A stretch of DNA of 64,000 nucleotides from Corallium rubrum (Eukaryota; Cnidaria; Anthozoa; Scleralcyonacea; Coralliidae): the NCBI GenBank assembly GCA_964035015.1, contig OZ035997.1, positions 68,796,067 through 68,860,066 of the forward strand, written 5' to 3'. Positions within the stretch are counted from its first letter, which is position 1. Each line of letters starts with the position of its first letter. Below the pieces are notes generated by a model. It was given only the letters and a program-made list of their open reading frames with translations, made no database searches and was not told the origin of the DNA. Of this stretch, positions 6,153 through 43,184 are shown piece after piece. Position numbers and translations under genes: made by a program.

Positions 6153-6154
6153 GA

Positions 6155-9710: not shown

Positions 9711-12700
9711 TACAATACAATACAATACAGTACAATACAATACAATACAATACAATACAATACAATACAATACAATACAATACAATACAATACAATACAA
9801 TACAATACAATACAATACAATACAATACAATACAATACAATACAATACAATACAATACAATACAATACAATACAATACAATACAATACAATACAATACAA
9901 TACAATACAATACAATACAATACAATACAATACAATACAATACAATACAATACAATACAATACAATACAATACAATACAATACAATACAATACAATACAA
10001 TACAATACAATACAATACAATACAATACAATACAATACAATACAATACAATACAATACAATACAATACAATACAATACAATACAATACAATACAATACAA
10101 TACAATACAATACAATACAATACAATACAATACAATACAATACAATACAATACAATACAATACAATACAATACAATACAATACAATACAATACAATACAA
10201 TACAATACAATACAATACAATACAATACAATACAATACAATACAATACAATACAATACAATACAATACAATACAATACAATACAATACAATACAATACAA
10301 TACAATACAATACAATACAATACAATACAATACAATACAATACAATACAATACAATACAATACAATACAATACAATACAATACAATACAATACAATACAA
10401 TACAATACAATACAATACAATACAATACAATACAATACAATACAATACAATACAATACAATACAATACAATACAATACAATACAATACAATACAATACAA
10501 TACAATACAATACAATACAATACAATACAATACAATACAATACAATACAATACAATACAATACAATACAATACAATACAATACAATACAATACAATACAA
10601 TACAATACAATACAATACAATACAATACAATACAATACAATACAATACAATACAATACAATACAATACAATACAATACAATACAATACAATACAATACAA
10701 TACAATACAATACAATACAATACAATACAATACAATACAATACAATACAATACAATACAATACAATACAATACAATACAATACAATACAATACAATACAA
10801 TACAATACAATACAATACAATACAATACAATACAATACAATACAATACAATACAATACAATACAATACAATACAATACAATACAATACAATACAATACAA
10901 TACAATACAATACAATACAATACAATACAATACAATACAATACAATACAATACAATACAATACAATACAATACAATACAATACAATACAATACAATACAA
11001 TACAATACAATACAATACAATACAATACAATACAATACAATACAATACAATACAATACAATACAATACAATACAATACAATACAATACAATACAATACAA
11101 TACAATACAATACAATACAATACAATACAATACAATACAATACAATACAATACAATATAATATAATATAATACAATACAATACAATATAATATAATACAA
11201 TACAATACAATACAATACAATACAATACAATACAATACAATACAATACAATACAATACAATACAATACAATACAATACAATACAATACAATACAATACAA
11301 TACAATACAATACAATACAATACAATACAATACAATACAATACAATACAATACAATACAATACAATACAATACAATACAATACAATACAATACAATACAA
11401 TACAATACAATACAATACAATACAATACAATACAATACAATACAATACAATACAATACAATACAATACAATACAATACAATACAATACAATACAATACAA
11501 TACAATACAATACAATACAATACAATACAATACAATACAATACAATACCCCCCCCCCCCCCCAATACAATACAATACAATACAATACAATACAATACAAT
11601 ACAATACAATACAATACAATACAATACAATACAATACAATACAATACAATACAATACAATACAATACAATACAATACAATACAATACAATACAATACAAT
11701 ACAATACAATACAATACAATACAATACAATACAATACAATACAATACAATACAATACAATACAATACAATACAATACAATACAATACAATACAATACAAT
11801 ACAATACAATACAATACAATACAATACAATACAATACAATACAATACAATACAATACAATACAATACAATACAATACAATACAATACAATACAATACAAT
11901 ACAATACAATACAATACAATACAATACAATACAATACAATACAATACAATACAATACAATACAATACAATACAATACAATACAATACAATACAATACAAT
12001 ACAATACAATACAATACAATACAATACAATACAATACAATACAATACAATACAATACAATACAATACAATACAATACAATACAATACAATACAATACAAT
12101 ACAATACAATACAATACAATACAATACAATACAATACAATACAATACAATACAATACAATACGATGCAATACAATACAATACAATACAATACAATACAAT
12201 ACAATACAATACAATACAATACAATATAATATAATATAATACAATACAATACAATACAATACAATACAATACAATACAATACAATACAATACAATACAAT
12301 ACAATACAATACAATACAATACAATACAATACAATACAATACAATACAATACAATACAATACAATACAATACAATACAATACAATACAATACAATACAAT
12401 ACAATACAATACAATACAATACAATACAATACAATACAATACAATACAATACAATACAATACAATACAATACAATACAATACAATACAATACAATACAAT
12501 ACAATACAATACAATACAATACAATACAATACAATACAATACAATACAATACAATACAATACAATACAATACAATACAATACAATACAATACAATACAAT
12601 ACAATACAATACAATACAATACAATACAATACAATACAATACAATACAATACAATACAATACAATACAATACAATACAATACAATACAATACAATACAAT

Positions 12701-15700
12701 ACAATACAATACAATACAATACAATACAATACAATACAATACAATACAATACAATACAATACAATACAATACAATACAATACAATACAATACAATACAAT
12801 ACAATACAATACAATACAATACAATACAATACAATACAATACAATACAATACAATACAATACAATACAATACAATACAATACAATACAATACAATACAAT
12901 ACAATACAATACAATACAATACAATACAATACAATACAATACAATACAATACAATACAATACAATACAATACAATACAATACAATACAATACAATACAAT
13001 ACAATACAATACAATACAATACAATACAATACAATACAATACAATACAATACAATACAATACAATACAATACAATACAATACAATACAATACAATACAAT
13101 ACAATACAATACAATACAATACAATACAATACAATACAATACAATACAATACAATACAATACAATACAATACAATACAATACAATACAATACAATACAAT
13201 ACAATACAATACAATACAATACAATACAATACAATACAATACAATACAATACAATACAATACAATACAATACAATACAATACAATACAATACAATACAAT
13301 ACAATACAATACAATACAATACAATACAATACAATACAATACAATACAATACAATACAATACAATACAATACAATACAATACAATACAATACAATACAAT
13401 ACAATACAATACAATACAATACAATACAATACAATACAATACAATACAATACAATACAATACAATACAATACAATACAATACAATACAATACAATACAAT
13501 ACAATACAATACAATACAATACAATACAATACAATACAATACAATACAATACAATACAATACAATACAATACAATACAATACAATACAATACAATACAAT
13601 ACAATACAATACAATACAATACAATACAATACAATACAATACAATACAATACAATACAATACAATACAATACAATACAATACAATACAATACAATACAAT
13701 ACAATACAATACAATACAATACAATACAATACAATACAATACAATACAATACAATACAATACAATACAATACAATACAATACAATACAATACAATACAAT
13801 ACAATACAATACAATACAATACAATACAATACAATACAATACAATACAATACAATACAATACAATACAATACAATACAATACAATACAATACAATACAAT
13901 ACAATACAATACAATACAATACAATACAATACAATACAATACAATACAATACAATACAATACAATACAATACAATACAATACAATACAATACAATACAAT
14001 ACAATACAATACAATACAATACAATACAATACAATACAATACAATACAATACAATACAATACAATACAATACAATACAATACAATACAATACAATACAAT
14101 ACAATACAATACAATACAATACAATACAATACAATACAATACAATACAATACAATACAATACAATACAATACAATACAATACAATACAATACAATACAAT
14201 ACAATACAATACAATACAATACAATACAATACAATACAATACAATACAATACAATACAATACAATACAATACAATACAATACAATACAATACAATACAAT
14301 ACAATACAATACAATACAATACAATACAATACAATACAATACAATACAATACAATACAATACAATACAATACAATACAATACAATACAATACAATACAAT
14401 ACAATACAATACAATACAATACAATACAATACAATACAATACAATACAATACAATACAATACAATACAATACAATACAATACAATACAATACAATACAAT
14501 ACAATACAATACAATACAATACAATACAATACAATACAATACAATACAATACAATACAATACAATACAATACAATACAATACAATACAATACAATACAAT
14601 ACAATACAATACAATACAATACAATACAATACAATACAATACAATACAATACAATACAATACAATACAATACAATACAATACAATACAATACAATACAAT
14701 ACAATACAATACAATACAATACAATACAATACAATACAATACAATACAATACAATACAATACAATACAATACAATACAATACAATACAATACAATACAAT
14801 ACAATACAATACAATACAATACAATACAATACAATACAATACAATACAATACAATACAATACAATACAATACAATACAATACAATACAATACAATACAAT
14901 ACAATACAATACAATACAATACAATACAATACAATACAATACAATACAATACAATACAATACAATACAATACAATACAATACAATACAATACAATACAAT
15001 ACAATACAATACAATACAATACAATACAATACAATACAATACAATACAATACAATACAATACAATACAATACAATACAATACAATACAATACAATACAAT
15101 ACAATACAATACAATACAATACAATACAATACAATACAATACAATACAATACAATACAATACAATACAATACAATACAATACAATACAATACAATACAAT
15201 ACAATACAATACAATACAATACAATACAATACAATACAATACAATACAATACAATACAATACAATACAATACAATACAATACAATACAATACAATACAAT
15301 ACAATACAATACAATACAATACAATACAATACAATACAATACAATACAATACAATACAATACAATACAATACAATACAATACAATACAATACAATACAAT
15401 ACAATACAATACAATACAATACAATACAATACAATACAATACAATACAATACAATACAATACAATACAATACAATACAATACAATACAATACAATACAAT
15501 ACAATACAATACAATACAATACAATACAATACAATACAATACAATACAATACAATACAATACAATACAATACAATACAATACAATACAATACAATACAAT
15601 ACAATACAATACAATACAATACAATACAATACAATACAATACAATACAATACAATACAATACAATACAATACAATACAATACAATACAATACAATACAAT

Positions 15701-16064
15701 ACAATACAATACAATACAATACAATACAATACAATACAATACAATACAATACAATACAATACAATACAATACAATACAATACAATACAATACAATACAAT
15801 ACAATACAATACAATACAATACAATACAATACAATACAATACAATACAATACAATACAATACAATACAATACAATACAATACAATACAATACAATACAAT
15901 ACAATACAATACAATACAATACAATACAATACAATACAATACAATACAATACAATACAACACAATACAACACAATACAACACAATACAACACAATACAAC
16001 ACAACACAATACAACACAATACAACACAATACAATACAATACAATACAATACAATACAATACAA
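9711..16064. repeat. 6.35-kb (TACAA)n pentanucleotide array
   Basis: About 1,270 copies of TACAA, almost perfectly homogeneous. Exceptions are a 15-C run at 11548-11562, short TATAA variant clusters at about 11155-11195 and 12225-12238, one CGATG variant at about 12162, and a CAACA-rich variant edge at 15957-16025. The minus strand is open in all three frames for over 2,100 codons (YCIVL), because TTGTA contains no stop in any phase; it is not a gene. Confidence 0.99.
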
Positions 16065-17184
16065 TATTATAAATATCATCTTAAATAATGCATCACCTAT
16101 AAAAATTATTATTACTTCTATAGGTGTGGGATTAGCTACACTTAAAAATAAACAAATTGTTTCTTTCTACTTACTTGTCTTGTTTAGTTGGTAGAATATC
16201 TTTCTGTCTTTGTGTTCGGTGTTCTATCGTTAAGCTCTGGCCCAAAGAAAGAATTGAAAAAAGCCTTTGATATATAAACTTTTATTTATAAAACAAAGAA
16301 TTGCAAAGAGTAACCACAAACTGTTTTAACTTACAAAATACATTTATAAAATACAAAAACTAGTGACGATTTAACTTGTTTTTACATGCCAAACTTAGAT
16401 ATTTTATGTATGGTCAAACACTGTCAAAATTTATATTTTTCGAAGATACAAACGCTATTTATCTCGCTGTGGAACACTGCAATTTAATCCAAGATACAGA
16501 ATACTATTACTAATAGTTCACACTCCTTCAGTTTACTAACCTCTTTTTATCAAAGTAACGCGATTTCTTCAACTTTTTGGCGTCGTTTGTCGTGATCAAT
16601 CGTTTCCAGTTTTTGTTTGTACAGTGCCGTCACTGCAGTGTTTAACAAGCTTTTTTGACGTCAAAAATCCACATATTTAGACAGATAGCACTGGATAAAC
16701 AAGAGGTTTCCTAAGGCACCACTTTGATGACAAATTATGACGTTTTTTGTAGATGTTCACTGTAAAAAGATGGATTTTTTCCTTGTGTCCATTCAGACTA
16801 AACCAACCCGCCATCTTCTTGCTTGAATTAGTGTGTTTTAGCGGGAAATTTCTTGAGATATGATTGGCCAATAAAACTATGAACAAAGCCTCCGACTTTA
16901 ATCCGACGGCTTCCGATGACGCATATCGATCGCAAAAAGTATTTATGTTTTTTGAGCATACTTTTTCATATTTAGGCAAATGCCTTTCTGTAGAAGCTTG
17001 TTGTGTATAAGCATATTATTTTAAGCATTCGTGTTGTTTCTTGTTGACCGCGGGTGCTCTAGGATACAGGCTATATAGGATATCCTGTTGGATGGATATG
17101 GTACAATTTTTGTCATTCTAAGTCTCAAACATAGGGTTATTTTTTTTTTGTGGAACAAAAAGCATGTTTTGAATAAACAAGGCA
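16065..17184. other. AT-rich spacer beginning with block X
   Basis: 16065-16265 is another copy of block X (AAATATCATCTTAAATAAT, TTTCTACTTACTTGTC, ATATCTTTCTGTCT, CTCTGGCCC). The rest has no coding signal I trust. A 100-codon minus-strand ORF at 16677-16979 has no recognisable features. Confidence 0.6.
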
Positions 17185-19184: not shown

Positions 19185-19414
19185 ACCCCAAACGTATGGA
19201 GTAAATTTCACCCCCCGTAAATCCCAATAAAAATTCACCCCAGTTGAAGGGGTAAATACCGCCAGGTCCGCCATTACTCTCGACAGAGGGGTAAACATTT
19301 GGCCACATTGCCCCAAATCCAGGAGTAGTTTTTACCCTTTGAAAAGTCACCCCATCCACTTTGGAAATTTTACACCTAAAATGGGGTAATTTTTACTCCC
19401 TGAAATTTACAGTG
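19185..19414 (-). mobile_element. Right end of a CACTA-like element with GGGGTAA motif array
   Basis: The sequence ends AAATTTACAGTG at 19414; its inverse begins CACTGTAAATTT, close to the ends of the element at 1955. Just inside is a dense array of GGGGTAAA, GGAGTAAA and TTTACCCC/TTCACCCC words. The element's left end was not found. The satellite begins at the next base. Confidence 0.65.
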
Positions 19415-20397
19415 TATAGCCTATTATTAATGCCCTTTACACTTTCGCTCATCACGTTTGTTGTAAAACAGCTAAAAAGCTCTACTACATCTCAAATTGT
19501 TCCTCTTACCATAACAAAGAGTTTGATATAAGTTAGAACAAGACAGGTGCAGTAGAACAAACGTTACAAGTGAAGCCGTCAGGCAGCAAAATACGGAAAA
19601 TTAACTATAGCCTATTATTAATACCCTTTACACTTCCGCTCATCATGTTTGTCGTAAAACAGCTAAAAAGATCTAATACAGCTCAAATTGTTCCTCTTGC
19701 CATAACAAAGAGTTTGATATAAGTTAGAACAATACAGGTGCAGTAGAACAAACGTTACAAGTGAAGCCGTCAGGCAGTAAAAGACGGAAAATTAATTATA
19801 GTTAATTATAGCCAATTATTAATCCCCTTTACACTTTCACCTATAACGTTTGTTCTAAAACAGCTAAAAAACTCTACTATATCTCAATTTGTTCCTCTTA
19901 TCATAACAAAAAGTTTGATATAAGTTGGAACAATACAGATGCAGTAGTACAAATGTTACAAGTGTGAAACCGTCAGGCAGTAAAATACGGAAAATTAATT
20001 ATAGCCTATTATTAATACCCTTTACACTTTCGCTCATCACGTTTGTTGTAAAACAGCTAAAAAGCAATACTATATATCAAGTTGTTCCCTTATCATAACA
20101 AAGAGTTTGATATAAGTTGGAACAATACATATGCAGTAGTACAAACGTTATAAGTGCAACCGTCAGGCAGTAAAAGACGGGAAATTAATTATAGTTAATT
20201 ATAGCCAGTTATTAATGCCCTTTACACTTTCACCTATAACGTTTGTTCTAAAACAGCTAAAAAGCTCCACTATATCTCAATTTATTCCTCTTATCACGAA
20301 AAGTTTGATATGGGTTGGAACAATACAGATGCAGTAGTACAAACGTTATAAGTGTGAAACCGTCGGGCAGTAAAATACGGAAAATTAATTATAGCTT

Positions 20398-21492
20398 ATT
20401 TTTTTTCGGTCCGTATCCTACCAAATCCTGCTTTCTGATTGGTTAACGAGCGGTCCGTATGAGCCCGTACGGACCGCTCGAGATAATTTTTTAATGTGTT
20501 TTATAGGCCGTAAAATTGATCGATTTTCATAACTATTTCGCTTGCCACAGAAAAAAATATATTCAACAGAGAGCTACGGGGATACAAATGAGTTTTATTA
20601 TCCAAATCGCTTTGACAACTTCGTGTGAAAACAGCGAATTTTAAAAGAAAGCGAGAATGCCGTGAAAAAGCAAAATTTCAGCCAGCGACATTTATAAAGT
20701 TTTAAAGTAGTATTGCTCAACGACGTATGAAAACAGTTTAAAACAATAGGCAAAACATACATAAACTTGTGAACACAGTATTTTGAATCACTAAATGAAA
20801 CTATATAGAAGTATATATTAAAAAAACATACCACGAGAGGACAGAAAAGCTGAAACCTTTTGATACTAAACTGTCATTCTTCTGTTGTCCAACAACAAAA
20901 CCGCTACAAGTCTTTACCCTTTAGTCAAATATTTTCCACATGCCAACCTCGTATCGTGTCATGTCTTTGAAAAAAGTTTCAAATGGCTTCCTACAAGCAT
21001 TTTCGTCTTCAAACTCGAACGACCCACTCCTTTCAATTTCCATGCAGTCAGCCGAGTATTGAAAACGATTTTTCAAACGAACAGCCAAAAACGAGCAAGC
21101 GACGAAGAAGGCGAAGAATCTTTATCAACTAAACTTTAAAAGCTCTGGATCTTCAAATTTTGACTGTTTTTTTATCACAAAAGACGTTCCAAGCTTCCCT
21201 GTCAGACTGCATGTCGGCAGTTGTTTACTGTCGAACGATAAACTTTGGACTTTTGAATATCACGTGAATGTCACGTCGATTACGCAATTAATTATGTTAA
21301 TTTACTTAATTATGTAAATTATAAATCGTACGATTAATAAAAAAAATAAATATGTTATTTACCGTTTTGGTCGGTCCGTATAGAGAAATATTTCCCTCGG
21401 TCTCAAAAACGACCCTCGGCCTGCGGCCTCGGGCAGTTTTTGAGACCTCGGGAAATATTTCTCTATACGGACCTCCCAGCCGGTAAATAACA
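20398..21492. repeat. 1.1-kb insert in satellite, copy 1 of 3
   Basis: A monomer is broken after AATTATAGC by a block starting TTATTTTTTTTCGGTCCGTA and ending GCCGGTAAATAACATATA, after which the satellite resumes with CTATTATTAACGCCC. It contains a 33-bp hairpin (GAGCGGTCCGT to ACGGACCGCTC, 20449-20482) and a large palindrome at 21351-21491. Short ORFs inside recur identically in all copies but have no recognisable motif. Confidence 0.9.
21351..21491. repeat. Palindrome within the 1.1-kb insert
   Basis: ATAGAGAAATATTTCCCTCG on the left pairs with CGGGAAATATTTCTCTATAC on the right, extended by CTCAAAAAC/GTTTTTGAG and TGTTATTTACCG/CGGTAAATAACA. The loop is CCTCGGCCTGCGGCCTCGGG. It is repeated at 1,694-bp offsets in the other two copies. 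Confidence 0.93.
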
Positions 21493-22091
21493 TATATCTA
21501 TTATTAACGCCCTTTACACTTTCGCTCATCACGTTTGTTGTAAAACAGCTAAAAAGCTCTACTATATCTCACATTGTTCCTCTTACCATAACAAAGAGTT
21601 TGATATAAGTTAGAACAATACAGGTGCAGTAGAACAAACGTTACAAGTGAAGCCGTCAGGCAGTAAAAGACGGAAAATTAATTATAGTTAATTATAGCCA
21701 ATTATTAATCCCCTTTACACTTTCACCTATAACGTTTGTTCTAAAACAGCTAAAAAACTCTACTATGTCTCAATTTGTTCCTCTTATCATAACAAAAAGT
21801 TTGATATAAGTTGGAACAATACATATGCAGTAGTACAAACGTTATAAGTGCGACCGTCAGGCAGTAAAAGACGGGAAATTAATTATAGTTAATTATAGCC
21901 AGTTATTAATGCCCTTTACACTTTCACCTATAACGTTTGTTCTAAAACAGCTAAAAAGCTCCACTATATCTCAATTTATTCCTCTTATCACGAAAAGTTT
22001 GATATGGGTTGGAACAATACAGATGCAGTAGTACAAACGTTATAAGTGTGAAACCGTCGGGCAGTAAAATACGGAAAATTAATTATAGCTT

Positions 22092-23186
22092 ATTTTTTTT
22101 CGGTCCGTATCCTACCAAATCCTGCTTTCTGATTGGTTAACGAGCGGTCCGTATGAGCCCGTACGGACCGGTCGAGATAATTTTTTAATGTGTTTTATAG
22201 GCCGTAAAATTGATCGATTTTCATAACTATTTCGCTTGCCACAGAAAAAAATATATTCAACAGAGAGCTACGGGGATACAAATGAGTTTTATTATCCAAA
22301 TCGCTTTGACAACTTCGTGTGAAAACAGCGAATTTTAAAAGAAAGCGAGAATGCCGTGAAAAAGCAAAATTTCAGCCAGCGACATTTATAAAGTTTTAAA
22401 GTAGTATTGCTCAACGACGTATGAAAACAGTTTAAAACAATAGGCAAAACATACATAAACTTGTGAACACAGTATTTTGAATCACTAAATGAAACTATAT
22501 AGAAGTATATATTAAAAAAACATACCACGAGAGGACAGAAAAGCTGAAACCTTTTGATACTAAACTGTCATTCTTCTGTTGTCCAACAACAAAACCGCTA
22601 CAAGTCTTTACCCTTTAGTCAAATATTTTCCACATGCCAACCTCGTATCGTGTCATGTCTTTGAAAAAAGTTTCAAATGGCTTCCTACAAGCATTTTCGT
22701 CTTCAAACTCGAACGACCCACTCCTTTCAATTTCCATGCAGTCAGCCGAGTATTGAAAACGATTTTTCAAACGAACAGCCAAAAACGAGCAAGCGACGAA
22801 GAAGGCGAAGAATCTTTATCAACTAAACTTTAAAAGCTCTGGATCTTCAAGTTTTGACTGTTTTTTTATCACAAAAGACGTTCCAAGCTTCCCTGTCAGA
22901 CTGCATGTCGGCAGTTGTTTACTGTCGAACGATAAACTTTGGACTTTTGAATATCACGTGAATGTCACGTCGATTACGCAATTAATTATGTTAATTTACT
23001 TAATTATGTAAATTATAAATCGTACGATTAACAAAAAAAATAAATATGTTATTTACCGTTTTGGTCGGTCCGTATAGAGAAATATTTCCCTCGGTCTCAA
23101 AAACGACCCTCGGCCTGCGGCCTCGGGCAGTTTTTGAGACCTCGGGAAATATTTCTCTATACGGACCTCCCAGCCGGTAAATAACA
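22092..23186. repeat. 1.1-kb insert in satellite, copy 2 of 3
   Basis: Nearly identical to 20398-21492 at a 1,694-bp offset. I noticed only scattered single-base differences, such as ACCGGTCGAG for ACCGCTCGAG in the hairpin arm. It carries the same palindrome at about 23045-23185. Confidence 0.9.
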
Positions 23187-23785
23187 TATATCTATTATTA
23201 ACGCCCTTTACACTTTCGCTCATCACGTTTGTTGTAAAACAGCTAAAAAGCTCTACTATATCTCACATTGTTCCTCTTACCATAACAAAGAGTTTAATAT
23301 AAGTTAGAACAATACAGGTGCAGTAGAACAAACGTTACAAGTGAAGCCGTCAGGCAGTAAAAGACGGAAAATTAATTATAGTTAATTATAGCCAATTATT
23401 AATCCCCTTTACACTTTCACCTATAACGTTTGTTCTAAAACAGCTAAAAAACTCTACTATGTCTCAATTTGTTCCTCTTATCATAACAAAAAGTTTGATA
23501 TAAGTTGGAACAATACATATGCAGTAGTACAAACGTTATAAGTGCGACCGTCAGGCAGTAAAAGACGGGAAATTAATTATAGTTAATTATAGCCAGTTAT
23601 TAATGCCCTTTACACTTTCACCTATAACGTTTGTTCTAAAACAGCTAAAAAGCTCCACTATATCTCAATTTATTCCTCTTATCACGAAAAGTTTGATATG
23701 GGTTGGAACAATACAGATGCAGTAGTACAAACGTTATAAGTGTGAAACCGTCGGGCAGTAAAATACGGAAAATTAATTATAGCTT

Positions 23786-24880
23786 ATTTTTTTTCGGTCC
23801 GTATCCTACCAAATCCTGCTTTCTGATTGGTTAACGAGCGGTCCGTATGAGCCCGTACGGACCGGTCGAGATAATTTTTTAATGTGTTTTATAGGCCGTA
23901 AAATTGATCGATTTTCATAACTATTTCGCTTGCCACAGAAAAAAATATATTCAACAGAGAGCTACGGGGATACAAATGAGTTTTATTATCCAAATCGCTT
24001 TGACAACTTCGTGTGAAAACAGCGAATTTTAAAAGAAAGCGAGAATGCCGTGAAAAAGCAAAATTTCAGCCAGCGACATTTATAAAGTTTTAAAGTAGTA
24101 TTGCTCAACGACGTATGAAAACAGTTTAAAACAATAGGCAAAACATACATAAACTTGTGAACACAGTATTTTGAATCACTAAATGAAACTATATAGAAGT
24201 ATATATTAAAAAAACATACCACGAGAGGACAGAAAAGCTGAAACCTTTTGATACTAAACTGTCATTCTTCTGTTGTCCAACAACAAAACCGCTACAAGTC
24301 TTTACCCTTTAGTCAAATATTTTCCACATGCCAACCTCGTATCGTGTCATGTCTTTGAAAAAAGTTTCAAATGGCTTCCTACAAGCATTTTCGTCTTCAA
24401 ACTCGAACGACCCACTCCTTTCAATTTCCATGCAGTCAGCCGAGTATTGAAAACGATTTTTCAAACGAACAGCCAAAAACGAGCAAGCGACGAAGAAGGC
24501 GAAGAATCTTTATCAACTAAACTTTAAAAGCTCTGGATCTTCAAGTTTTGACTGTTTTTTTATCACAAAAGACGTTCCAAGCTTCCCTGTCAGACTGCAT
24601 GTCGGCAGTTGTTTACTGTCGAACGATAAACTTTGGACTTTTGAATATCACGTGAATGTCACGTCGATTACGCAATTAATTATGTTAATTTACTTAATTA
24701 TGTAAATTATAAATCGTACGATTAATAAAAAAAATAAATATGTTATTTACCGTTTTGGTCGGTCCGTATAGAGAAATATTTCCCTCGGTCTCAAAAACGA
24801 CCCTCGGCCTGCGGCCTCGGGCAGTTTTTGAGACCTCGGGAAATATTTCTCTATACGGACCTCCCAGCCGGTAAATAACA
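23786..24880. repeat. 1.1-kb insert in satellite, copy 3 of 3
   Basis: Third copy at a further 1,694-bp offset, sharing the ACCGGTCGAG variant with copy 2. The unit of amplification is this insert plus three satellite monomers. Confidence 0.9.
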
Positions 24881-26244
24881 TATATCTATTATTAACGCCC
24901 TTTACACTTTCGCTCATCACGTTTGTTGTAAAACAGCTAAAAAGCTCTACTATATCTCACATTGTTCCTCTTACCATAACAAAGAGTTTGATATAAGTTA
25001 GAACAATACAGGTGCAGTAGAACAAACGTTACAAGTGAAGCCGTCAGGCAGTAAAAGACGGAAAATTAATTATAGTTAATTATAGCCAATTATTAATCCC
25101 CTTTACACTTTCACCTATAACGTTTGTTCTAAAACAGCTAAAAAACTCTACTATGTCTCAATTTGTTCCTCTTATCATAACAAAAAGTTTGATATAAGTT
25201 GGAACAATACAGATGCAGTAGTACAAATGTTACAAGTGTGAAACCGTCAGGCAGTAAAATACGGAAAATTAATTATAGCCTATTATTAATACCCTTTACA
25301 CTTTCGCTCATCACGTTTGTTGTAAAACAGCTAAAAAGCAATACTATATATCAAGTTGTTCCCCTTATCATAACAAAGAGTTTGATATAAGTTGGAACAA
25401 TACATATGCAGTAGTACAAACGTTATAAGTGCAACCGTCAGGCAGTAAAAGACGGGAAATTAATTATAGTTAATTATAGCCAGTTATTAATGCCCTTTAC
25501 ACTTTCACCTATAACGTTTGTTCTAAAACAGCTAAAAAGCTCCACTATATCTCAATTTATTCCTCTTATCACGAAAAGTTTGATATGGGTTGGAACAATA
25601 CAGATGCAGTAGTACAAACGTTATAAGTGTGAAACCGTCGGGCAGTAAAATACGGAAAATTAATTATAGCCTATTATTAACGCGCTTTACACTTTCGCTC
25701 ATCACGTTTGTTGTAAAACAGCTAAAAAGCTCTACTACATCTCAAATTGTTCCTCTTACCATAACAAAGAGTTTGATATAAGTTAGAACAATACAGGTGC
25801 AGTAGAACAAACGTTATAAGTGAAGCCGTCAGGCAGCAAAGTACGGAAAATTAACTATAGTCTATTATTAATACCCTTTACACTTTCGCTCATCACGTTT
25901 GTTGTAAAACAGCTAAAAAGCTTCACTATATCTCAATTTATTCCTCTTATCATCACGAAAAGTTTGATATGGGTTGGAACAATACAGATGCAGTAGTACA
26001 AACGTTATAAGTGTGAAACTGTCGGGCAGTAAAATACGGAAAATTAATTATAGCCTATTATTAACGCCCTTTACACTTTCGCTCATCACGTTTGTTGTAA
26101 AACAGCTAAAAAGCTCTACTATATCTCAAATTGTTCCTCTTATTTTAACAAATAATTTGATATAAGTTGGAACAATACAGATGCAGTAGTAGTACAAACG
26201 TTATAAGTGTGAATCCGTCAGACAGTAAAATACGGAAAATTAAT

Positions 26245-26866
26245 TATTATACACTTGTTGACTGGCGCCGAGGGAAACATCGAGTTTTACGGACCCGAAG
26301 GTTTCAATGTCACCCGAGGGTGACATTGAAGCCTGAGGGACCGTAAAACTCGATGTTTCCCGAGGCAAAAGTCAACAAGCGTTTTGTTATATACCAAAGA
26401 CTTTTAAAATAGAAAATACCAAGTTGACTCGAAACTTGCAAAAGGCAAAAAGACCTACCAAAACACTGACTTTGTCTTCGTAAATAATTTCAATTCAACT
26501 AAACAAATACACCAGACTCAACAAGTACAAAGAACGGCTTTAAATTTATCCAGGTTTTCTTCAGACCTTCTTTGAAGGTGTGTATAGATATTCTTTCCTT
26601 TGGAAAATGGATTATTTCATAGCAAACAAGCTCGAAACAGCTCTTGTTTTCAAAATGTTCCGAAAAGTCCAAAGTTCTTGATCTGATGCAATAATCATTG
26701 TGTATTCACGTGAACAACGCATGATTAAGCTGACGTCAGAGGGAAACAGTGCAATGTTTCCCTTTTTCCGAAAGAAACATTGAGTTTGTTGAACAACACG
26801 TGACCATGATTTGACGAATAGGATTTCATCTTTGGCAAACGAAAGTCTTTGGTATATAACAAAGCC
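26245..26866. mobile_element. Foldback-type insertion in the satellite
   Basis: Interrupts a satellite monomer. It contains a 126-bp palindrome at 26254-26379 (CTTGTTGACTGGCG and GTCAACAAG arms, CATCGAGTTTTACGG paired with CCGTAAAACTCGATG) and an outer inverted pair, TGTTATATACCAAAGACTTT near 26385 and AAAGTCTTTGGTATATAACA near 26845. It encodes nothing recognisable and is probably a nonautonomous DNA element. Confidence 0.75.
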
Positions 26867-28394
26867 TATTATTAATACCCTTTACACTTCCGCTGATCAC
26901 GTTTCTTGTAAAACAGCTAAAAAGCAATACTATATCTCAATTTGTTCCCCTTATCATAACAAAGAGTTTGATATAACTTGGAACAATACAGATGCAGTAG
27001 TACAAACGTTATAAGTGCAACCGTCAGGCAGCAAAATACGGAAAATTAATTATAGCCTGTTATTAATACACTTTACGCTTTCGCTCATCACGTTTGTTGT
27101 AAAACAGCTAAAAAGCTCTACTACATCTCACATTGTTCCTCTTACCATAACAAAGAGTTTGATATAAGTTAGAACAATACAGGTGCAGTAGAACAAACGT
27201 TATAAGTGAAGCCGTCAGGCAGCAAAGTACGGAAAATTAACTATAGTCTATTATTAATACCCTTTACACTTTCGCTCATCACGTTTGTTGTAAAACAGCT
27301 AAAAAGCTCCACTATATCTCAATTTATTCCTCTTATCACGAAAAGTTTGATATGGGTTGGAACAATACAGATGCAGTAGTACAAACGTTATAAGTGTGAA
27401 ACCGTCGGGCAGTAAAATACGGAAAATTAACTATAGCCTATTATTAATACCCTTTACACTTTCGCTCATCATGTTTGTCGTAAAACAGCTAAAAAGATCT
27501 AATACAGCTCAAATTGTTCCTCTTATTTTAAGAAAGAGTTTGATATAAGTTGGAACAATACAGGTGCAGTAGAACAAACGTTATAAGTGAAGCCGTCAGG
27601 CAGCAAAGTACGGAAAATTAACTATAGTCTATTATTAATACCCTTTACACTTTCGCTCATCACGTTTGTTGTAAAACAGCTAGAAAGCAATACTATACCT
27701 CAATTTGTTCCCCTTATCATAACAAAGAGTTTGATATAAGTTGGAACAATACAGAGGCAGTAGTACAAACGTTATAAGTGTGAAACCGTCAGGCAGTAAA
27801 ATACGGAAAATTAACTATAGCCTATTATTAATACCCTTTACACTTTCGCTCATCACGTTTGTTGTAAAACAGCTAAAAAGCTCTACTACATCTGAAATTG
27901 TTCCTCTTATTTTAACAGAGTTTGATATAAGTTGGAACAATACAGGTGCAGTAGAACAAGCGTTATAAGTGAAGCCATCAGACAGTATAATATGGAAAAT
28001 TAAGTATAGCCTATTATTAATACCCTTTACACTTTCGCTGATCACGTTTCTTGTAAAACAGCTAAAAAGCTCTACTATATCTCAGTTTGTTCCTCTTATC
28101 ATAACAAAGAGTTTGATATAACGTGGAACAATACAGATACAGTAGTACAAACGTTATAGTAAGCCGTCAGGCACGAAAATACGGAAAATTAATTATGGCT
28201 TATTATTAATGCCCTTTACACTTTCGCTCATCACGTTTGTTGTAAAACAGCTAAAAAGCAATATTATATCTCAGTTTGTTCCTCTTATCATAACAAAGAG
28301 TTTGATATAACGTCGAACAATACAGATGCAGTAGTACAAACGTTATAATAAGCCGTCAGGCAGTAAAAGACGGAAAATTAATTATAGTTAGTTA

Positions 28395-28620
28395 CACTGT
28401 TAATTGGAAGGAGTAAATATAACTCCAAAACTGAAGTTAAAAAAAAAGGTTCAAAATATTCCGTTTTTCGGAGTAAAAAGTTACTCCATTTTAGGAGTAA
28501 AATATATACTCGCATTTTGGAGTTAAAATGATCCCGATTTTGGAGTTAAAATTACTCCTATTTGAGAGTAAATATTAACTAGTCGAATATGGAGTAAAAT
28601 TATGTTATGATGTAATTCTA
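28395..28620 (+). mobile_element. Left end of a CACTA-like element with GGAGTAA motif array
   Basis: Begins CACTGTTAATTGGAAGGAGT immediately after the satellite. It is followed by an array of GGAGTAAA, GGAGTTAAAA and TTACTCC words at 15-30 bp spacing. Same syntax as the arrays at 1960, 5460 and 19185 but with a different core word. No right end was found in the window. Confidence 0.65.
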
Positions 28621-29085
28621 GAGCAAAAATGCTGCATTATACCAGATGTAAATGGAAACTAATTTCTTGATTTAAAATGTATTTCTTGCTTCATAAAACT
28701 GATAATAGTCATAGACAAACGAGCCGCCGAGCCGTCTTGGCTGTGTTATATTATTTAACACGACAAAATATTTGAAAAAAGGCAACATTGAGGTCTCCAT
28801 ACTCCATAGGAAGGAAATCTCTATGGTAATCTCCACACTTTTACGACCTTTTCAAAAAACACTCCACGAGATCACGTGGGCTGTGGCTGTCAGAGCTACG
28901 ATTACAACCACGGGCGCTATATATAAAGCGCCCTGATTACGACCCTCCATGAATAACAAGACACCTGGGTCAGGTGTGCACTTGGGCTACTGGAAAGTGC
29001 AGAGGTCTCTATAACGCATGAGCAAAGAGGTGGGAGTCAGCCGAGGAAGATCAGATCGAACGCTGAATGTGCAGGTCTATCCTGA
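28621..29085. other. Noncoding stretch before the ISL2EU-like element
   Basis: Relatively GC-rich from about 28850 onward. No reading frame or RNA gene that I can support. Confidence 0.5.
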
Positions 29086-29168
29086 ATAGGCGAGTTTCAG
29101 GGCGTTGCGCGCACATCACTTTTTAAAAGGACTGGCGGGCTCCATTCAAAGTAAACAAGACAAAGACA

Positions 29169-31211
29169 ATGGCGGATGACACTATCAAACAATCTAAACG
29201 AGTCTCTGGAAATGTTTGCTGCGCTGTGAGTTGTTTAAATCGTCAGGGAAGAGATCCTGTTAGCTTCTACAGGATACCTGCGGCGAAAAGCCGTCGCAGT
29301 GACTGGATAAGGGCTATAAGTCGCGCTGGAAATTGGCGTCCATCTTCCAACACTCGTTTGTGTTGCGAGCACTTTATATCAGGCAAGAAATGCAAGAATC
29401 CTCTATCCCCGAACTATCTACCACGAGTATTCTCCCATAAAAAGTCGAAAATAAGCATTCCCACAATCACCAGAACCGGTACCAGTGGAATAGTTTCCAA
29501 AGAGGATTCCAGTGCAGGGGAAAGTAACTCTGGTTTGACTACTGCTAAAGACAAATATTTGGATTGTGAGACTGTATTAGATGGCGAAACTTCAGAAAGG
29601 TAAATATCATTATAAGCTTCAGAAGCTGGATATAACAGCGTAGCAAGCTTAAGTTTATTGTGTTTTGTATTTAGCTTTCATCCCAGTCTGGCTACTGCCA
29701 CTTTACGTTCGCTAAATAATGCTGCACTGTCAAAATTATTATAACAAGCTTAAGGTTTTTACCTACTGTATAGTATATAATGGTTTCTTTTTAAAGAAGA
29801 TACCAATTCATATTTAGCAGCATGCCAGGAAGCTTACAAATGCTATATCTTTGAGGACCATGGGTGATATCTCATGTACTGATGTTGAACAACTACTGAC
29901 TCCTACAACTTGTGATGAAACAGTTACCTGGTAAGTTAAAGTCTTGGTTGTACATGGGAGTCTTTGCATATTGTTTACAATTGACATAGAACTCTCATAT
30001 TGCAAACTTGGGTGTACTAGTGTTTTGAACAAAGACATTGGATTTGCTCTTATGTTATTCATTTTCCATCAATAATATCTCAAACTCCTCATGTACATCC
30101 TCATGTATATAGCCATTAACTTTTGTTTCTAGTAACTAGAATTCTTGACTCTTTTTAGTGACTTCACCAATACATTTAGTGTTCAAACAGCTTATGCACC
30201 AGAGACTATGCTAAAAAGAATTAAGGAACTTGAAGATGAAAACAAGGAACTAAAAGTGAAACTGTTGACCTTGGAGAACATTAGAAGTGATTCCAAACTG
30301 GTGAAATTTTACACAGGGTTTGTTAACTATGAAACATTCATTGCTCTATTTGATTATCTTCAGCCGAAAGCTGAACAATGAAATATTGGAATGGCAGAAA
30401 TTCTGTTGGTGGTAAGCATTACACTTGTGGGAAGAAGTCCGAACATGTCCTGAGCAAACTTGATGAGTTTTTTATGATAATGGTAGACTCAGACTTGGAC
30501 TATTGTTAAAGGATTTGGCTGCACGCTTTGGAATCTCTGAAAGTTCCTGCTCAAAGATTTTTTTTACTACATGGATCAATTTCCTCTATTTTGAGTTAAC
30601 AGCGATGTGCCAATACACATCAAAGGAGAAAACACTAGAGACAATGCCAAAGCAATTTCACAACTTTCCATGCACATGTGTCATCATTGACTGCACGGAG
30701 ATATTTACCCAGAGGCCTTCATCATTGGAAACACAGCGGCAGACATTTAGCAATATAAGCACCATAACACATTTAAATTTCTTGTTGGGATCAGCCCAAA
30801 TGGTGCCATAATTTATGTTAGTAGGGCATGGGGAGGTCGTGCTTCAGACAAGCACATAACACACAACTCTGACTTTCTAGATAACGTAGAGTATGGTAAT
30901 CAAGTAATGACAGATAGGGGCTTCGATATTGAAGCAGGGGCTTCGATATTGAAGCAGAACTTACTTCACTTGGTGGAAGTCTAGTGATGCCCCCATTTAA
31001 AGGGAGTCACCGTTCCCAGCTCTCTCCTGAGGAGGTCATGAAGGGAAAGGGAATAGCCGAAGTTCGGATTCATGTTGAGCGAGCTATAGGAAGGATTAAA
31101 ACATTCCATATTTTAGATACAGATATGAAGTTAAGTATGAAAGATGTAACAGAGCAGATTTTTACTGTTTGTGCATTTCTTACAAATTTCCAGACACCAT
31201 ATATAAAATAG
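29169..31211 (+). pseudogene. THAP-finger DDE_Tnp_4 transposase, broken by frameshifts
   Basis: Exons 29169-29599, 29829-29930 and 30159-31211 join in consistent phase (2, 2) at good splice sites. Residues ~16-90 form a THAP C2CH finger (CCAVSCLNRQGRDPVSFYRIP, then W, then CCEHF, and PNYLP). A short coiled coil follows (IKELEDENKELKVKLLTLE). Then come an HTH-like segment (LLKDLAARFGISESSCSKIF) and the catalytic region with IIDCTEIF, DRGFDI and HVERAIGRIK, which supply the D, D and E of the DDE_Tnp_4 family. Damage in the last exon: single-base deletions near 30378, 30487 and 30745, and a 20-bp tandem duplication (GGGGCTTCGATATTGAAGCA) near 30915-30955. The first two exons are intact. It cannot make a full transposase as it stands. 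DNA cutting and joining in the nucleus is the family role. Confidence 0.88.
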
Positions 31212-31237
31212 ATTAGAATATATATTTATATATACAG

Positions 31238-31959
31238 TCATGTAATGAATTCACATAGCTTTTCTGTACATGTCTTGCCACTGGGAAGGGTCTGGATGCC
31301 ATTGGCAACTATAGATTCAAGAGCAAATAGCACTGCTGCGGTGTGAGAGCATACTTCACCAAGTCTAAATGAGAAAGGAAAAGAATAACAAATTTCGTGT
31401 ACAATACTTATATTAAATATTGTAGCAAATATTATTAAAAAGTTACATCTTTTTCACATAATTAGTAAAGTTTTAATCCAAGCTACTTCAGTCTTTACCC
31501 AGCAACGCAAACACAGTGAGCACCATATACTTCACTGGTGTCTTTTCCCAAGCATACAACAACTTTATAAGTTTCTGTTGTGCTTTGAGAAGGCAAGCAG
31601 TCACACCTGGAAGTAAAAAAAGTTATATTTGAATATCGTTGGAACTTTCCAAAAAGCAACTTCCTCTACAAAGTAAAATAACAAGCATTCAGTTCTGCAA
31701 GATTATTTTTAACATCTGACAATTACCTGAACAAACAAAATGGGGAGTTTGTTGGTTTGGCAAATTCCAACTTATTCAGATGTCCTTCCTCAAACAGAGA
31801 ATACGCTCTCAGCGTTTTGTATGCTCTTATGCTTTGCTGATCAAATGATTTGTCATTCGAGTGAAGTAGGTAGTTATCTGGTATAGTTTCCGGAAGTTTA
31901 ACGTTGTTGTTGCTCGCTTGTACCACTGCTTGTACAGGTTTTGCAAGTCTATCCGCCAT
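31238..31959 (-). CDS. SWIM zinc-finger partner protein of the ISL2EU-like element
   Basis: Starts at an ATG just inside the right inverted repeat. Exons 31959-31727, 31606-31499 and 31364-31238 join in phase through AG/GTAATT, TTCCAG and GG/GTAAAG signals to a TGA at 31238-31240, giving 155 residues with no internal stop. The second and third exons read CDCLPSQSTTETYKVVVC, AHCVCVAG and LGEVCSHTAAVLFALES, a SWIM finger (CxCxnCxH). In ISL2EU elements this finger is normally followed by a YqaJ-type nuclease domain; here the frame stops just after it (TCTEKLCEFIT) and only 26 bp separate it from the transposase stop. The nuclease part is therefore missing. The role is unknown; DNA or protein binding is the family expectation. 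Confidence 0.75.
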
Positions 31960-32030
31960 TACATATTTGAATGGAGCCCACCAGTCCTTTTAAAAAGTGA
32001 TGCGCGCGCAACACCCTGAAATTCGCCTAT

Positions 32031-34344
32031 GTCAATTTAAAGTGTCAGGATGATATGTGTCCTGATACCTAGGGGACTTCTCTGTCCCACATGTGGGATG
32101 TTAAACTAAAAGCATATAACAAAAAAAACAAAAACAGTAGGGGTGTTGTGGTCAGGGTCTGAGGTGGAACTTTCTCCCTAGGGTGTTGTGGTTAGATTTA
32201 GGGTTACTGGTGGTTGTCGTTAGGTTTAGGGTCAATTGGTTAGAGGTGGGGGTCAGGGTTGGGTTTCATTTTCTTTAATATTCAGGATTATCTGGAATTC
32301 TAGACCACTCCACGATTCAGGATAATGGGTCATTCCAGAAAAGATCCATACCTCCCCCACAGAGGAAATTTGTGCTGTCCGGGGAGGGGAGGGGGATTAA
32401 GGTCAGTAGCAGTAAGGTTTAGAAGAGAGTATGTTACAGGTCAGGATGAAGAACATTTTAAACATTGATTTCATATATAGTTTTGTCAAAAGTTTTTTCT
32501 AGAACACAAAGAGTGGAACTATACTTTTGCCTCACTATTATGCTCAAAATCATGTTGACATAATGTGGACAACCCTAAGGGTCCAAGGCTCAAAATCTTG
32601 AGTGATGAACACTCATTACAGGAACAAATGCATGAAGCTATACCAGTATAGTAATCACAATGTAAATTTTTAAGAGATTTGTTTTATTTGAGGCTCCATG
32701 TATCCATGTCTATGTGACTATACACGGATAACCGATTTCAAACTGCTCAAACAAAATCGTTTAAACATGGCATAAAAACTTTGTTCTATAAACTAAATTT
32801 AGACAACGACTATCTAAATAAGCTTACGTACTGTACCAATGGAAATAACGAAACAGCTCACCTTTACTTAAACAGATCACAATCATTTACAATGTCTAGT
32901 ATCTAGTTGATTCCTTGTTTCTTTCGGAGAACACGTAGTCAGACAAAGGTGTCATAGACGTAGCCATACTAAAGGTCCGCCTTCGCATTGATTGAAGAGT
33001 CTTTGAGATCACAACACTAATAGATATATATAGTCATTTAAACATGTCCTATTGTCCTTCACTCCTTCAGTTTAAAGTTTCCAATTATTTTTAATACACC
33101 TTGATTCGCTGACAGTCCGACTACTCTGACATCTTTGTTTGAGATGACTGCTGTGTAGTGTACCAAGAAATGTCATGGAAATATTCAAAAACATCGATAA
33201 AATGGAAAGAAAAGCTTCGTTCAAGAGACAACTCGCCATGAATATCGCCAGCGACCGCGCGGAGGACTAATAACGCGTCGCAAAAAAAAAAGAATCGCGA
33301 AACCTAGACTCGGCTACCCCAGGTAGCCCGAGTAATTATTTCCTGCACGGGGGGCCCTAGCCTGCGAACCCGGACGTATTTCCCCATACACGCGTGTGCT
33401 AAGCGGCGAAGCCTTTAATATTATTGAAAATATAATAGACAACTCACGACGAACGGAAGAAATGTCATAAAAACCCAACATTTTTGTAAAAATTCGCACA
33501 ATATGAAATTCAAGATAGCTTTGTAATATGGAGAACCCTTGTTTTGACAGCGAAGTTCATGTGTGTCACAGGTAAACAAACGACTATTTTATATTCATAT
33601 AATACTGTAAAATCGTTCATATTGTTATATATAATATAGCAAAAATACAACTGGTGCTGATTCGATACTCGATATTATCGAAAAATACGACTTTGGCTAC
33701 GTCGTATCTTTTTATGTAATAGTTCAAATACGAGACGGAGGACTTTACCGAGATTTCAAAGTCCAAGTGCTTTTTGAAAAGGAGAGCCTTCTTAATGCAC
33801 GAGGGCTTTGTAATCCCGGTAAAGTCCGACGTCGAGTATTTGAACTGACTTCTCAAACTCAAAACTCCGAAGATACCTCTGAAACGTAATATAATTTTCC
33901 TTATTTCAAAGTCCCAAGACTTTTAAAACGTATTTTGCATTATTTCAAGGTACTAGTACTTTTCCTCCGATTTCAAAGCACTGAGTAAACATTAATTTCT
34001 TTTGTTTTTGGTTCATGAATTATTAATGATTTGAGATGTTTTCGATAATATCGAATGTGGATACTGGAAGTCATGAACTTTGTTGATATTCAACATTTTT
34101 ACAAATGTAGTATTGGATCCTTTCGTTCTACAGGCATGATCCTTTAGTAGTACTTGCAGCAACAGAATGGATGTGTCACCTTCAATATCTAATGAGAATA
34201 TTAAGTATGTACTGTATAAGTATAATGGTTGTTCATTGATCAGTTGATAATAATTATATATAGTATGACAGCAACATTTAAGTAATGTTTGCTACTTATT
34301 TTACCCAATGGGAACTTGTTCTCTATTTAAACAATTTATGTATA
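32031..34344. other. Noncoding stretch with repeat fragments
   Basis: 32326-32400 is the left half of a dispersed MITE (GGTCATTCCAGAAAAGATCC) also seen at 63046. 32150-32265 has diverged GGGTGTTGTGGT / GGTTTAGGGT words. 33721-33846 is a foldback. No gene is visible. Confidence 0.6.
33721..33846. repeat. Foldback, ~50-bp arms
   Basis: GTTCAAATACGAGACGGAGG pairs with the inverse of CGACGTCGAGTATTTGAAC, and GGACTTTACCGAGATTTCAA with CTTTGTAATCCCGGTAAAGT, with scattered mismatches. Confidence 0.8.
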
Positions 34345-34507
34345 CAGTTGAACCTCCCTTTAAGAGACCACCTCTAAGAGTAAGCGACTGGTCACCTCTC
34401 TTAAGCAATTCCCCGAGTTTTAAGTGATCACTTCCATTACTGCATGCAACCACAGGTACACAACATTTTGGGTGCAGTGGTTGCTAGCTTATGGGAGGTT
34501 TGACTCT
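34345..34507. mobile_element. Short Tc1/mariner-like MITE
   Basis: Starts CAGTTGAACCTCCCTTTAAG after a TA and ends GGGAGGTTTGACTCTA. The CAGTTGAACCTC-type end is typical of Tc1/mariner-derived nonautonomous elements. About 163 bp, no coding capacity. Confidence 0.6.
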
Positions 34508-34750
34508 ATTTGTATCCGTCCCCCATTCTTTTCCCTGCTTACATTTAATTACAGTATTGAACATCGATGCATACCGTCCAGTAGTTGAATCAAGATTGCT
34601 GGATGATTGGTGAGGATTCCTTGACAGGCAACTACTTAAAAAGCTATTTTCTTTGCCTTAAATATTTGGTACAATTTGACCGTGGCAGTTATACATATAC
34701 TGTTCAGTATTACATTGGAAACTAGTGATGCATTACAGTTGATTTTTACA

Positions 34751-34782
<32 letters not shown>

Positions 34783-36472
34783 CTTTTAACTGCAATGTTC
34801 TGATCAGTTCATTCTGATTTTTTTTTAAACTACAGTATACATTTAATTGATTTCTAGAACCCAGCAGCCAATCAAATGCATAGTTCAATAATGAACTTGT
34901 GAGCATCCAAATGAACTTCGAAATATTGCAGTGAAAAGTTATAAAAAAATTACTGTAATTTGACACCTGGCAAAATTCCAGCTTAATTAGATACACACAC
35001 TCAGTTTACTTTACAGTTTACAGTGTACAGTATCTATAGGTAGGACATGTTTGATTTTTTCACCATTATCTAAATTGCGTTTAGAAATTCAAAGGAGTCT
35101 CTACAGTGACATGCTCAATCTACGGTCTCTACAGTGACATGCTCATACACTCTTGGATACAGTTTAATACATGTAACTATACTGTCTACAGCACATACCG
35201 GACTTGTTGCTGCATTCATCAAGCAAAGCTTGGGCCACGTCCTTGAGCAGATATTTCATTGATAATGTATCTTTATTTTGGGCAAGATTTATTATTTTCA
35301 TTAGGTATTGTCCTTTGAATTTTAGCATGAACAACTTTAGCATAAAAATACTACGGGATTACACTTTATACTGCATTAGTACATGTACGTTCATGTGAGT
35401 CCTCACAGACACATGGTATTCAGTTGTGGAACTGTATTTAGTTCATGACATTACCTCAAATCCTGAAATCAGCCGCAGTGCTGGATATTGAGTAATTAAA
35501 TTCTTCAAATTTGTTGGGCTTGTTAAGATTTTATTTCTCCGGTATGGGAAGGTCACACACATCAATTCTTTTATAAGGGCAACATTTTTGTTTGTAGTTT
35601 TCAACATTTCTTTCTTCATTACGTCGATATGATTTAGGACATGTCTTCAGTTTCTCCTAATAGGTCGAGACCAGATACTTTTCTAAACTTTGCTGGTTTA
35701 TTTGTTTCTTCAGGGGAAGAGGTGCTGATGTGATGAAGTCTCTTATTTTTCCTTATGTTCTTGAAGCGGAATTTTATTGATTGCTCCCATGAATCCTATG
35801 AGAACAATATTTATTGCACATGAAAGTTGTGTCTTTTTATTGTTTTTCTTGATATGTTTAAGGTTATATTGTAGACCTTCAGCCCAGGTAATATTTTGGG
35901 AAAACCTTTAGCACCCTGTCCATTTATTGCAGATACCTAAACATATGTATATTGTTGGATAGCTTAATATTTAAGAACAAGATTTTTTGTTCAAACCAAA
36001 TATATTTTTGACTGCCATACAGTGCACTAAATATTACATTTTCCCAAAACATACCCTGAAGCAGTGAAGGTCTACAGTATATCGTTAATCGAAGAGAGTG
36101 TAATTTCATGTCATTATAATTATTGATCAATCCAAAATTCCAAATTGATTAACAATTATTCATCAACAAATTCAGGCTGTAACTGCAGAAAATAAAATAA
36201 ATAAAGTTAACCATTTCTATTATTAATTTCCTGTACATGTACAGTATGTATAGGTTAGCAGGTTTAACTCATTAAGGGCAATGGTGTACTTTAATATGTA
36301 AAGATCACACTACATATGTCACATTGTATAACGAGTTGTAAAATTAGGAATAATATTGAAGTTTAAATATTTGAACAATTAGTCACACGAAACTGCATCT
36401 CGGTAACTGATCATTATACAGTGTGATGTATGCAGTGGGATATTTAAATACATATCAAACAAATGTTATTGT
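34508..36472. other. AT-rich noncoding stretch
   Basis: Contains an (AT)n run at 34753-34781, a direct repeat of GTCTCTACAGTGACATGCTC at about 35096 and 35124, and a weak inverted pair (TAATATTTTGGGAAAA near 35889, TTTTCCCAAAACATA near 36040). No exon I can support. Confidence 0.55.
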
Positions 36473-36480
36473 TATACATG

Positions 36481-36808: not shown

Positions 36809-37098
36809 TATTCATGTATGGAAAGCACTAGCTGCTTCTGACAGACTGTGATTGTCTGCTGCCAGGGCAAGAGTTCTCTGTAATGCCCCAGGCATTGTGG
36901 AATTGTTAATGCATTGTGATACAGAACCTAAAGCTGCCTAAGTATAGGATAAATACCGAGAACGGAGGCTTTAAGCCAGATACAACCCGAGGGGCCGCAA
37001 ACTTACAACACGATTTAAGGAGGTTTCCTAAGGGAATTATTAAGCCACATGATTTGCTTTTATTTTGAAAAGAAGAGAAAAAAAATGCTATATAAAGA

Positions 37099-43152: not shown

Positions 43153-43184
43153 TGGTGCCCAACGTGGGGCAGTGAAGTATCAAC

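Follow-up and report, generated by a model that had tools for sequence, protein, structure and literature searches.

Shared end layout and family-specific subterminal words in CACTG-ended transposons of Corallium rubrum: a probable radiation of CACTA-like elements

Introduction

Can transposons that share the same termini split into families by changing, coherently, the short words that accompany these termini? This question is raised by a 64,000-nucleotide stretch of the Corallium rubrum genome (hereafter the window), C1:68796067-68860066 in the 474-Mb genome assembly. The designations C1, C20, C30 and C128 refer to contigs of this assembly, and L-numbers (L006, L029, L030 etc.) to loci fetched from the same genome. 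A preliminary description of the window had pointed out three places at which a CACTG end is combined with an array of short inverted words, the word differing from place to place, and had proposed related CACTA-like elements whose arrays co-evolve each with its own DNA-binding protein.

The three places belong to elements designated E1, E2 and E3, which are CACTA-superfamily-like transposons with word-specific families. The observed basis comprises a fixed grammar of the ends with words specific to each family, target duplications of 2 bp, the occurrence of short elements that carry the same ends, and a linkage of the GTGT and GTAG ends to finger-bearing transposase exons. The word probably pairs each family with its own transposition enzyme, whose putative fingers are likely to read it. 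Taken as a whole, including the reading of words by fingers, we consider it fairly probable that E1, E2 and E3 belong to a radiation of CACTA-superfamily-like (En/Spm-like) cut-and-paste DNA transposons.

Results

Three CACTG-ended elements carry dense word arrays

The elements and their arrays are located as follows.

1955–6153, plus strand: element E1, 4199 bp, with the ends CACTGTAAATCTGG and CCAGATTTACAGTG and the word GGTGT/AGTGT
1955–2490, plus strand: left subterminal array of E1, 35 [AG]GTGT words in both orientations, neighbours being offset by 10, 11 or 21 bp in 22 of 34 cases
5476–6153, minus strand: right subterminal array of E1, 39 [AG]GTGT words, part of it a 97-bp tandem repeat of 4.7 copies
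19190–19414, minus strand: right end of E2, CACTGTAAATTTCAG followed by GGAGT, 7 bases and ACCCC, with mixed GGGGT/GGAGT words
28395–28600, plus strand: left end and array of E3, word GGAGT(A/T)A
28395–42238, plus strand: body of E3, collinear with a copy on C20 (L031) apart from insertions

The window was scanned for G.GT[AT]A in both orientations, using 250-base windows in 50-base steps. The mean was 1.0 word per scan window, and all 20 scan windows with at least nine words coincided with E1, E2 or E3. Random occurrence of arrays without CACTG ends, named beforehand as the contrary outcome, was not observed within the window, where dense arrays were confined to CACTG boundaries.

Counts of array words at the three elements were judged against 200 dinucleotide shuffles. 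GTGTAA/TTACAC was found 15 times in the left array of E1 (shuffle maximum 8) and 27 times in the right one (shuffle maximum 6). In the E3 array (28395–28600), GAGTAA occurred seven times and GAGTTA three times, the shuffle maximum being 2 for each; the most frequent 6-mer of E3 reached a count of 7 and stayed under its shuffle maximum of 8, while the named words exceeded theirs. The words of the E2 end comprised six GGGGT, three GGAGT, one GGTGT and one GTAGT. The excess over shuffled sequences is narrow there (GGGTAA 4, shuffle maximum 3; GAGTAA 3, shuffle maximum 2), and the most frequent 6-mer, with a count of 4, stays under a shuffle maximum of 9.

The combination of CACTG end and word array was thus recovered at all three places, most weakly at E2, and some positions had to be revised. 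Position 5476 is the inner edge of the right E1 array, E1 being a single element with the outer ends 1955 and 6153, and 19414 is the right end of E2, so that the E2 body extends leftward. Likewise, a difference in word was borne out for E1 (GGTGT) and E3 (GGAGT), while a reading of E2 as a clean GGGGTAA family is not supported by its mixed words. E2 is nevertheless a real repeat family despite its weak word signal. Its last 235 bp exist in 12 copies of 98–100% identity, including E2 itself and one within an inverted duplication described below, and one of the copies of this end is the right end of a full-length partner of 7652 bp (C1:43549769-43557420). A further copy of E1, 4121 bp long, lies at C1:8381902-8386022. 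Where a full-length E2 body would be expected, the window contains a TACAA pentanucleotide array of 6.4 kb (9711–16066, approx. 1271 copies, 99% match).

A common end layout with differing words throughout the genome

All four ends in the window follow the same register (15-5-7-5): 15 bases counted from CACTG, a 5-base word, 7 bases, the inverted word and then the array. Word and inverted word are GGTGT/ACACC at the left and AGTGT/ACACC at the right end of E1, GGAGT/ACTCC at E3 and GGAGT/ACCCC at E2. A loose version of this layout was found at 30 places in the fetched loci, at 28 of which the two words agree within one base; this agreement is not independent evidence because the loci had been chosen by similarity to E3. 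Independently of that choice, the loose pattern matched 1129 times in the whole genome, compared with 88 matches of the reversed pattern. Among the first 100 matches listed, GGAGT was present in 52, GGGGT and AGAGT in four each, ATAGT in three, GTAGT, GGTGT and AGTGT in one each, and ACTGT in 26, the remaining eight being single words. The ACTGT "words" were rejected as part of the series, since 25 of them represent one unrelated repeat; eight of its nine neighbouring pairs point outward. Neighbouring pairs among the same 100 matches pointed inward in 17 cases (997–7904 bp) and outward in ten, eight of the latter belonging to the ACTGT repeat.

Word-specific patterns gave 44 matches for TAGT, 61 for GTGT and 103 for strict GGAG in the genome, with no match of the respective reversed controls; by visual inspection, one of the TAGT matches (on C30) seems unrelated. 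GTGT ends less than 60 kb apart make up 13 inward pairs, six of which, at 3.9–4.3 kb, have a length like that of E1.

Neighbouring words are most commonly offset by 11–12 bp in the GGAG and GTAG families and by 10–11 bp in the GTGT family of E1. Larger steps such as 21, 25, 37 and 49 bp are also present, and word orientation mostly alternates. Such helix-length spacing would equally suit phasing of nucleosomes or host factors, so that the words might be host-factor sites or a nucleosome or DNA-shape signal, with differing words reflecting differing host proteins. The restriction of dense arrays to element ends within the window and the position of two word families near their own transposase exons (see below) argue against such host signals, which we regard as a very improbable explanation.

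Two further observations concern short elements. The 100 listed GGAG ends include ten 111-bp miniature elements, each consisting of two such ends face to face, e.g. C1:44842775-44842885. The short CACTG elements of L006, L011 and L018 have interiors whose motifs resemble tRNA- or 5S-derived heads of short interspersed elements; a comparison of such interiors from five sources (L006, L011, L018, L024 and the window) with Rfam gave no match.

One base is switched in every word of an alignable pair of ends

Over their first 72 bases, a GTAG end (L030, to which L028 is identical in this region) and one of the GGAG type (L029) give an ungapped alignment. The words at +16, +28, +39 and +65 all differ at a single base, which is the second base of the word in four of four cases. 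All 16 remaining word bases are identical, and 43 of the 52 bases outside the words are identical as well. Common end grammar, differing words and this coherent change accord with the proposal of related CACTA-like elements with diverged words.

The arrays contain tandem blocks of 97 bp in E1, 37 and 72 bp in the GTAG family and 23 bp in the GGAG family, which provide a plausible route for the spread of a word through an array. Since such blocks homogenize sequences without any selection, one could assume that tandem duplication and gene conversion fixed arbitrary words and that families drifted apart in the absence of selection by a binding protein. Against such drift speak the change of the same base in each of the four words, the identity of all other word bases and the nine differences in the 52 bases between them, as well as the 15-5-7-5 register, which is maintained across all words. 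We judge it improbable that the series arose without co-evolution.

GTGT and GTAG ends are linked to finger-bearing transposase exons

Two sets of transposase exons, T1 and T3, are present in the window.

363–1885, plus strand: exons of T1, a homologous finger-bearing transposase, whose start (L050:1807) is 5.3 kb upstream of the window
49018–49716, plus strand: first exon of T3 with two C2H2-like fingers, candidate transposase of E3, 20.6 kb inside the left end of E3 and of the same polarity
50156–50314, plus strand: second exon of T3, 43% identical to T1
52933–53070, plus strand: core exon fragment of T3, 43% identical to T1
59663–59743, plus strand: core exon fragment of T3 with DELEVCNPLGS, 48% identical to T1 over 27 amino acids
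61241–61740 (61241–61411 and 61558–61740), plus strand: exons of T3 with a CxxC motif, 49% and 37% identical to T1

The first exons of T1 and T3 each encode two C2H2-like fingers, recognized by eye from the Cys/His spacing, and are 26–30% identical; identity of the core exons amounts to 37–49%. When the finger exon of T3 was used as query, 98 places were found in the genome. One of these exons (C1:66622244-66622891), 45% identical to T3 and containing two internal stop codons, is bracketed by a GTAG pair 20.8 kb long (C1:66615115-66635919). Three GTGT ends lie 5.0, 6.8 and 8.0 kb upstream of finger exons, which are on the element side; identical scores were obtained for two of these exons (40% identity with T3), the third being weaker (29%). 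Finger exons linked to GTGT ends are located at C1:54774042-54774668, C20:2168597-2169223 and C128:26910-27347. Within 15 kb, four element-side finger exons for GTGT compare with 0.19 expected and the one bracketed exon for GTAG with 0.14 expected under a uniform model, whose expectations are optimistic because ends and transposases cluster in the genome, which lessens the support that they lend. The linked DNA-binding protein that had been postulated is supported insofar as ends of the GTGT and GTAG types have finger-bearing transposase exons in their vicinity, which are homologous to one another yet distinct.

T1 was not accepted as the transposase of E1. Its last recognized open reading frame ends 70 bp to the left of the left E1 end, thus outside the element, and the 4121-bp copy at C1:8381902 is without a listed finger exon. 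E1 looks as if it had been inserted into an intron of T1. No transposase exon of the T1/T3 type was found inside E1, which contains a small open reading frame (3262–3420) without explanation.

This reading frame would fit an alternative in which a separate element-encoded protein binds the words, comparable to TNPA on Spm or VANC on VANDAL and acting for instance as an anti-silencer or activator; co-evolution of word and protein would still hold. In the available text of the respective studies, the binder of plant subterminal motifs is a separate product (PMC2613891), and VANC motifs, which vary from one related element to another, expand by tandem repetition (PMC5735166). The Pfam support for the fingers, being below cut-off, also favors a separate binder. 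On the other hand, the C2H2-like finger pair is a plausible DNA-binding module within the first transposase exon itself, and no second conserved protein was identified in the full-length elements as far as these were read. A separate binder is therefore possible, though rather unlikely, and we prefer recognition of the words by the putative fingers of the transposases.

Probable assignment to the CACTA superfamily

Terminal inverted repeats of the CACTA/CACTG type, inward CACTG pairs on C1 and subterminal arrays of short direct and inverted motifs are in agreement with CACTA (En/Spm) elements. Nine element pairs from fetched loci and the window were compared, seven of which have CACTG at both ends and two (L016 and L019) CACTG and CACTA. 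Target duplications of 2 bp, mostly TA, were found in eight of the nine pairs and such of 3 bp in none, the chance expectation being 0.08 each; this support is reduced to six of seven informative independent cases because L016 and L019 share flanks and represent one event and L034 lies within a TA repeat. The length of 2 bp is the figure of animal TRC elements, not the 3 bp of plants. CCC ends of the SmTRC1 type were absent, as the four window ends and the fetched pairs start with CACTG or CACTA.

The CACTA transposase domain Transposase_21 (PF02992) has 71 matches in the genome. Two of the 98 finger exons share an open frame with it, C20:4840715 (836 amino acids) and C1:48724727 (833 amino acids). 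A Pfam search with the joined T1 exons revealed no family at E <0.1; zf-BED in T1 barely reaches its own cut-off (20.7 versus 20.6 bits).

Surroundings of E2 and E3

Two further features adjoin or interrupt the elements.

19415–28394, no strand assigned: satellite with a tandem unit of approx. 191 bp, exactly between the right end of E2 and the left end of E3, part of neither
29089–32027, plus strand: transposon with THAP and DDE_Tnp_4 domains and its own inverted ends, nested, not part of E3

The orientation of the flanking ends excludes the satellite from the elements. It holds a larger block with three repeats at 1694-bp spacing, parts of which recur at L011, L035 and L043. The THAP and DDE_Tnp_4 transposase (29127–31208) lies inside the inverted ends at 29089 and 32027 and does not own the ends of E3; the THAP protein (29127–29600) was rejected as the DNA binder of E3, since it belongs to a nested insertion within 5.0 kb of sequence that the C20 copy lacks. 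Between insertions, this copy is otherwise collinear with positions 28393–42238 of the window. We take this transposon to be Harbinger-like (ISL2EU). A second insertion missing from the C20 copy (36953–39091) holds a tyrosine-recombinase-like open reading frame, presumably Crypton-like.

A right end of E3 was not found by fuzzy search of the window, L031 and L051 or by array search of L048 and L049. The retrotransposon with long terminal repeats at 42976–48181, whose 177-bp flanking repeats are 98.9% identical, is presumably BEL-like. A set of large open reading frames with a terminal SAP domain (54044–56850) is possibly another transposase family nested near T3.

Positions 26880–38433 of the window, covering the left end of E3 and part of the satellite, form an inverted duplication with C1:68870225-68881788 (9457 bp at 99.84% and 3241 bp at 100% identity). 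The duplication seems to extend further, since the E2 end recurs at C1:68899505. It could be recent biology or a fold-back of the assembly.

Discussion

The results suggest how such a system might operate. Paired N-terminal fingers of the transposase would bind the words of either end and bring a transposition complex together, the catalytic part of which would cut at CACTG and insert at 2-bp targets, which are mostly TA. The same enzyme would also mobilize short derivatives that have the matching word. When the fingers change, a coherent change of one base may ensue in all words, one word being spread through the array by block duplication, and families changed in both word and fingers would stop cross-mobilizing each other and separate.

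Several observations weigh against this explanation. No target duplication was seen at E1, where a simple repeat on the right flank may have erased it. Comparison of the GTAG end with E3 is less clean than that with L029 (identity at 12 of the 20 word bases and at 42 of the other 52) because two of the four E3 words there are, by eye, degenerate or shifted. Furthermore, Pfam matches to C2H2 in T1 and T3 fall under the curated cut-offs. The fourth GTGT link is T1, which is on the element side of the right E1 end and yet outside the left one. On their outer flank, too, the ends have a finger exon at a distance of up to 15 kb, one each for GTGT (again T1) and GTAG, and 92 of the 98 finger exons are without a GTGT or GTAG end within this distance. 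E3 and T3 are linked by position, 20.6 kb apart, with 0.52 chance links expected within 25 kb, and none of the other 99 GGAG ends among the 100 listed has an inside finger exon within 25 kb. The in-frame Transposase_21 matches barely exceed the cut-off (29.6 and 29.4 versus 28.6 bits), the finger exons at C20:4840715 and C1:48724727 are 23% and 26% identical to T3, respectively, and Pfam detected no Transposase_21 in the T1 and T3 fragments.

For the more specific proposition of a natural series of CACTA families, split by coherent one-base switches (GGAGT to GTAGT, GGTGT, GGGGT and AGAGT) at conserved spacing and each recognized by its own diverged C2H2 transposase with two fingers, we see an even chance. 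If true, one genome would hold a recognition code showing how the specificity of transposons splits. How a transposase and its many sites can change jointly has long been an open problem, since all the sites have to switch. In this single genome, alternative word states coexist in ends that can be aligned, and in the compared pair the same base is changed at each aligned site. With homologous finger-bearing transposases linked to two word families, the idea of co-evolution becomes directly testable.

Among known systems, VANDAL elements are Mutator-like and belong to another superfamily; we compare these Mutator-like elements (MULEs) by motif logic alone. As far as the available text of PMC5735166 goes, Arabidopsis VANDAL elements likewise carry short tandem binding motifs that differ between related elements, and co-evolution of these motifs with VANC proteins was proposed. 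VANC is an anti-silencing protein, however, its motifs lie in non-coding regions and that text mentions no fixed end register. Buster1, an animal hAT element, possesses short subterminal tandem repeats that are used to distinguish hAT transposons; it differs in superfamily and, in the part of the article available, shows a single motif and no series of switched words (PMC4298943).

The preliminary description had assumed that such a series has no named description in animals. A literature search, conducted outside Repbase and most subscription journals, likewise yielded none for animal CACTA-like ends with subterminal words. The underlying principle, in contrast, is already published for plant CACTA elements (PMC2613891) and VANDAL (PMC5735166), and family-marking subterminal repeats are mentioned for an animal hAT element (PMC4298943), as the accessible portions of these articles document. 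According to the accessible sections of PMC1636069, SmTRC1 resembles the Corallium elements in its 2-bp target duplication and has a 54-bp end with internal motif repeat plus a tandem-repeat region; its transposase is related to Transposase_21, as may be that of the Corallium elements. Animal TRC/CACTA elements (SmTRC1, PMC1636069; Spongebob/EnSpm-4N1_HM, PMC4298943) are described with 2-bp target duplications and differ in having CCC ends, and the same sections describe neither word arrays nor word switching.

The closest parallels are found in plants. In the available text of PMC2613891, the CACTA elements En/Spm, Tam1 and soybean Tgm/Tgmt* share CACTR-type ends and dense direct and inverted subterminal motifs, which vary among families of one species and for which co-evolution with the binder was proposed. 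According to the same text, plant elements generate a 3-bp target duplication and usually end in CACTA, whereas the Corallium elements have CACTG. Their motifs measure 12–20 bp, and a separate protein is believed to recognize them (PMC2613891); the Corallium families, in contrast, combine 5-bp words in a strict register with finger-bearing transposases.

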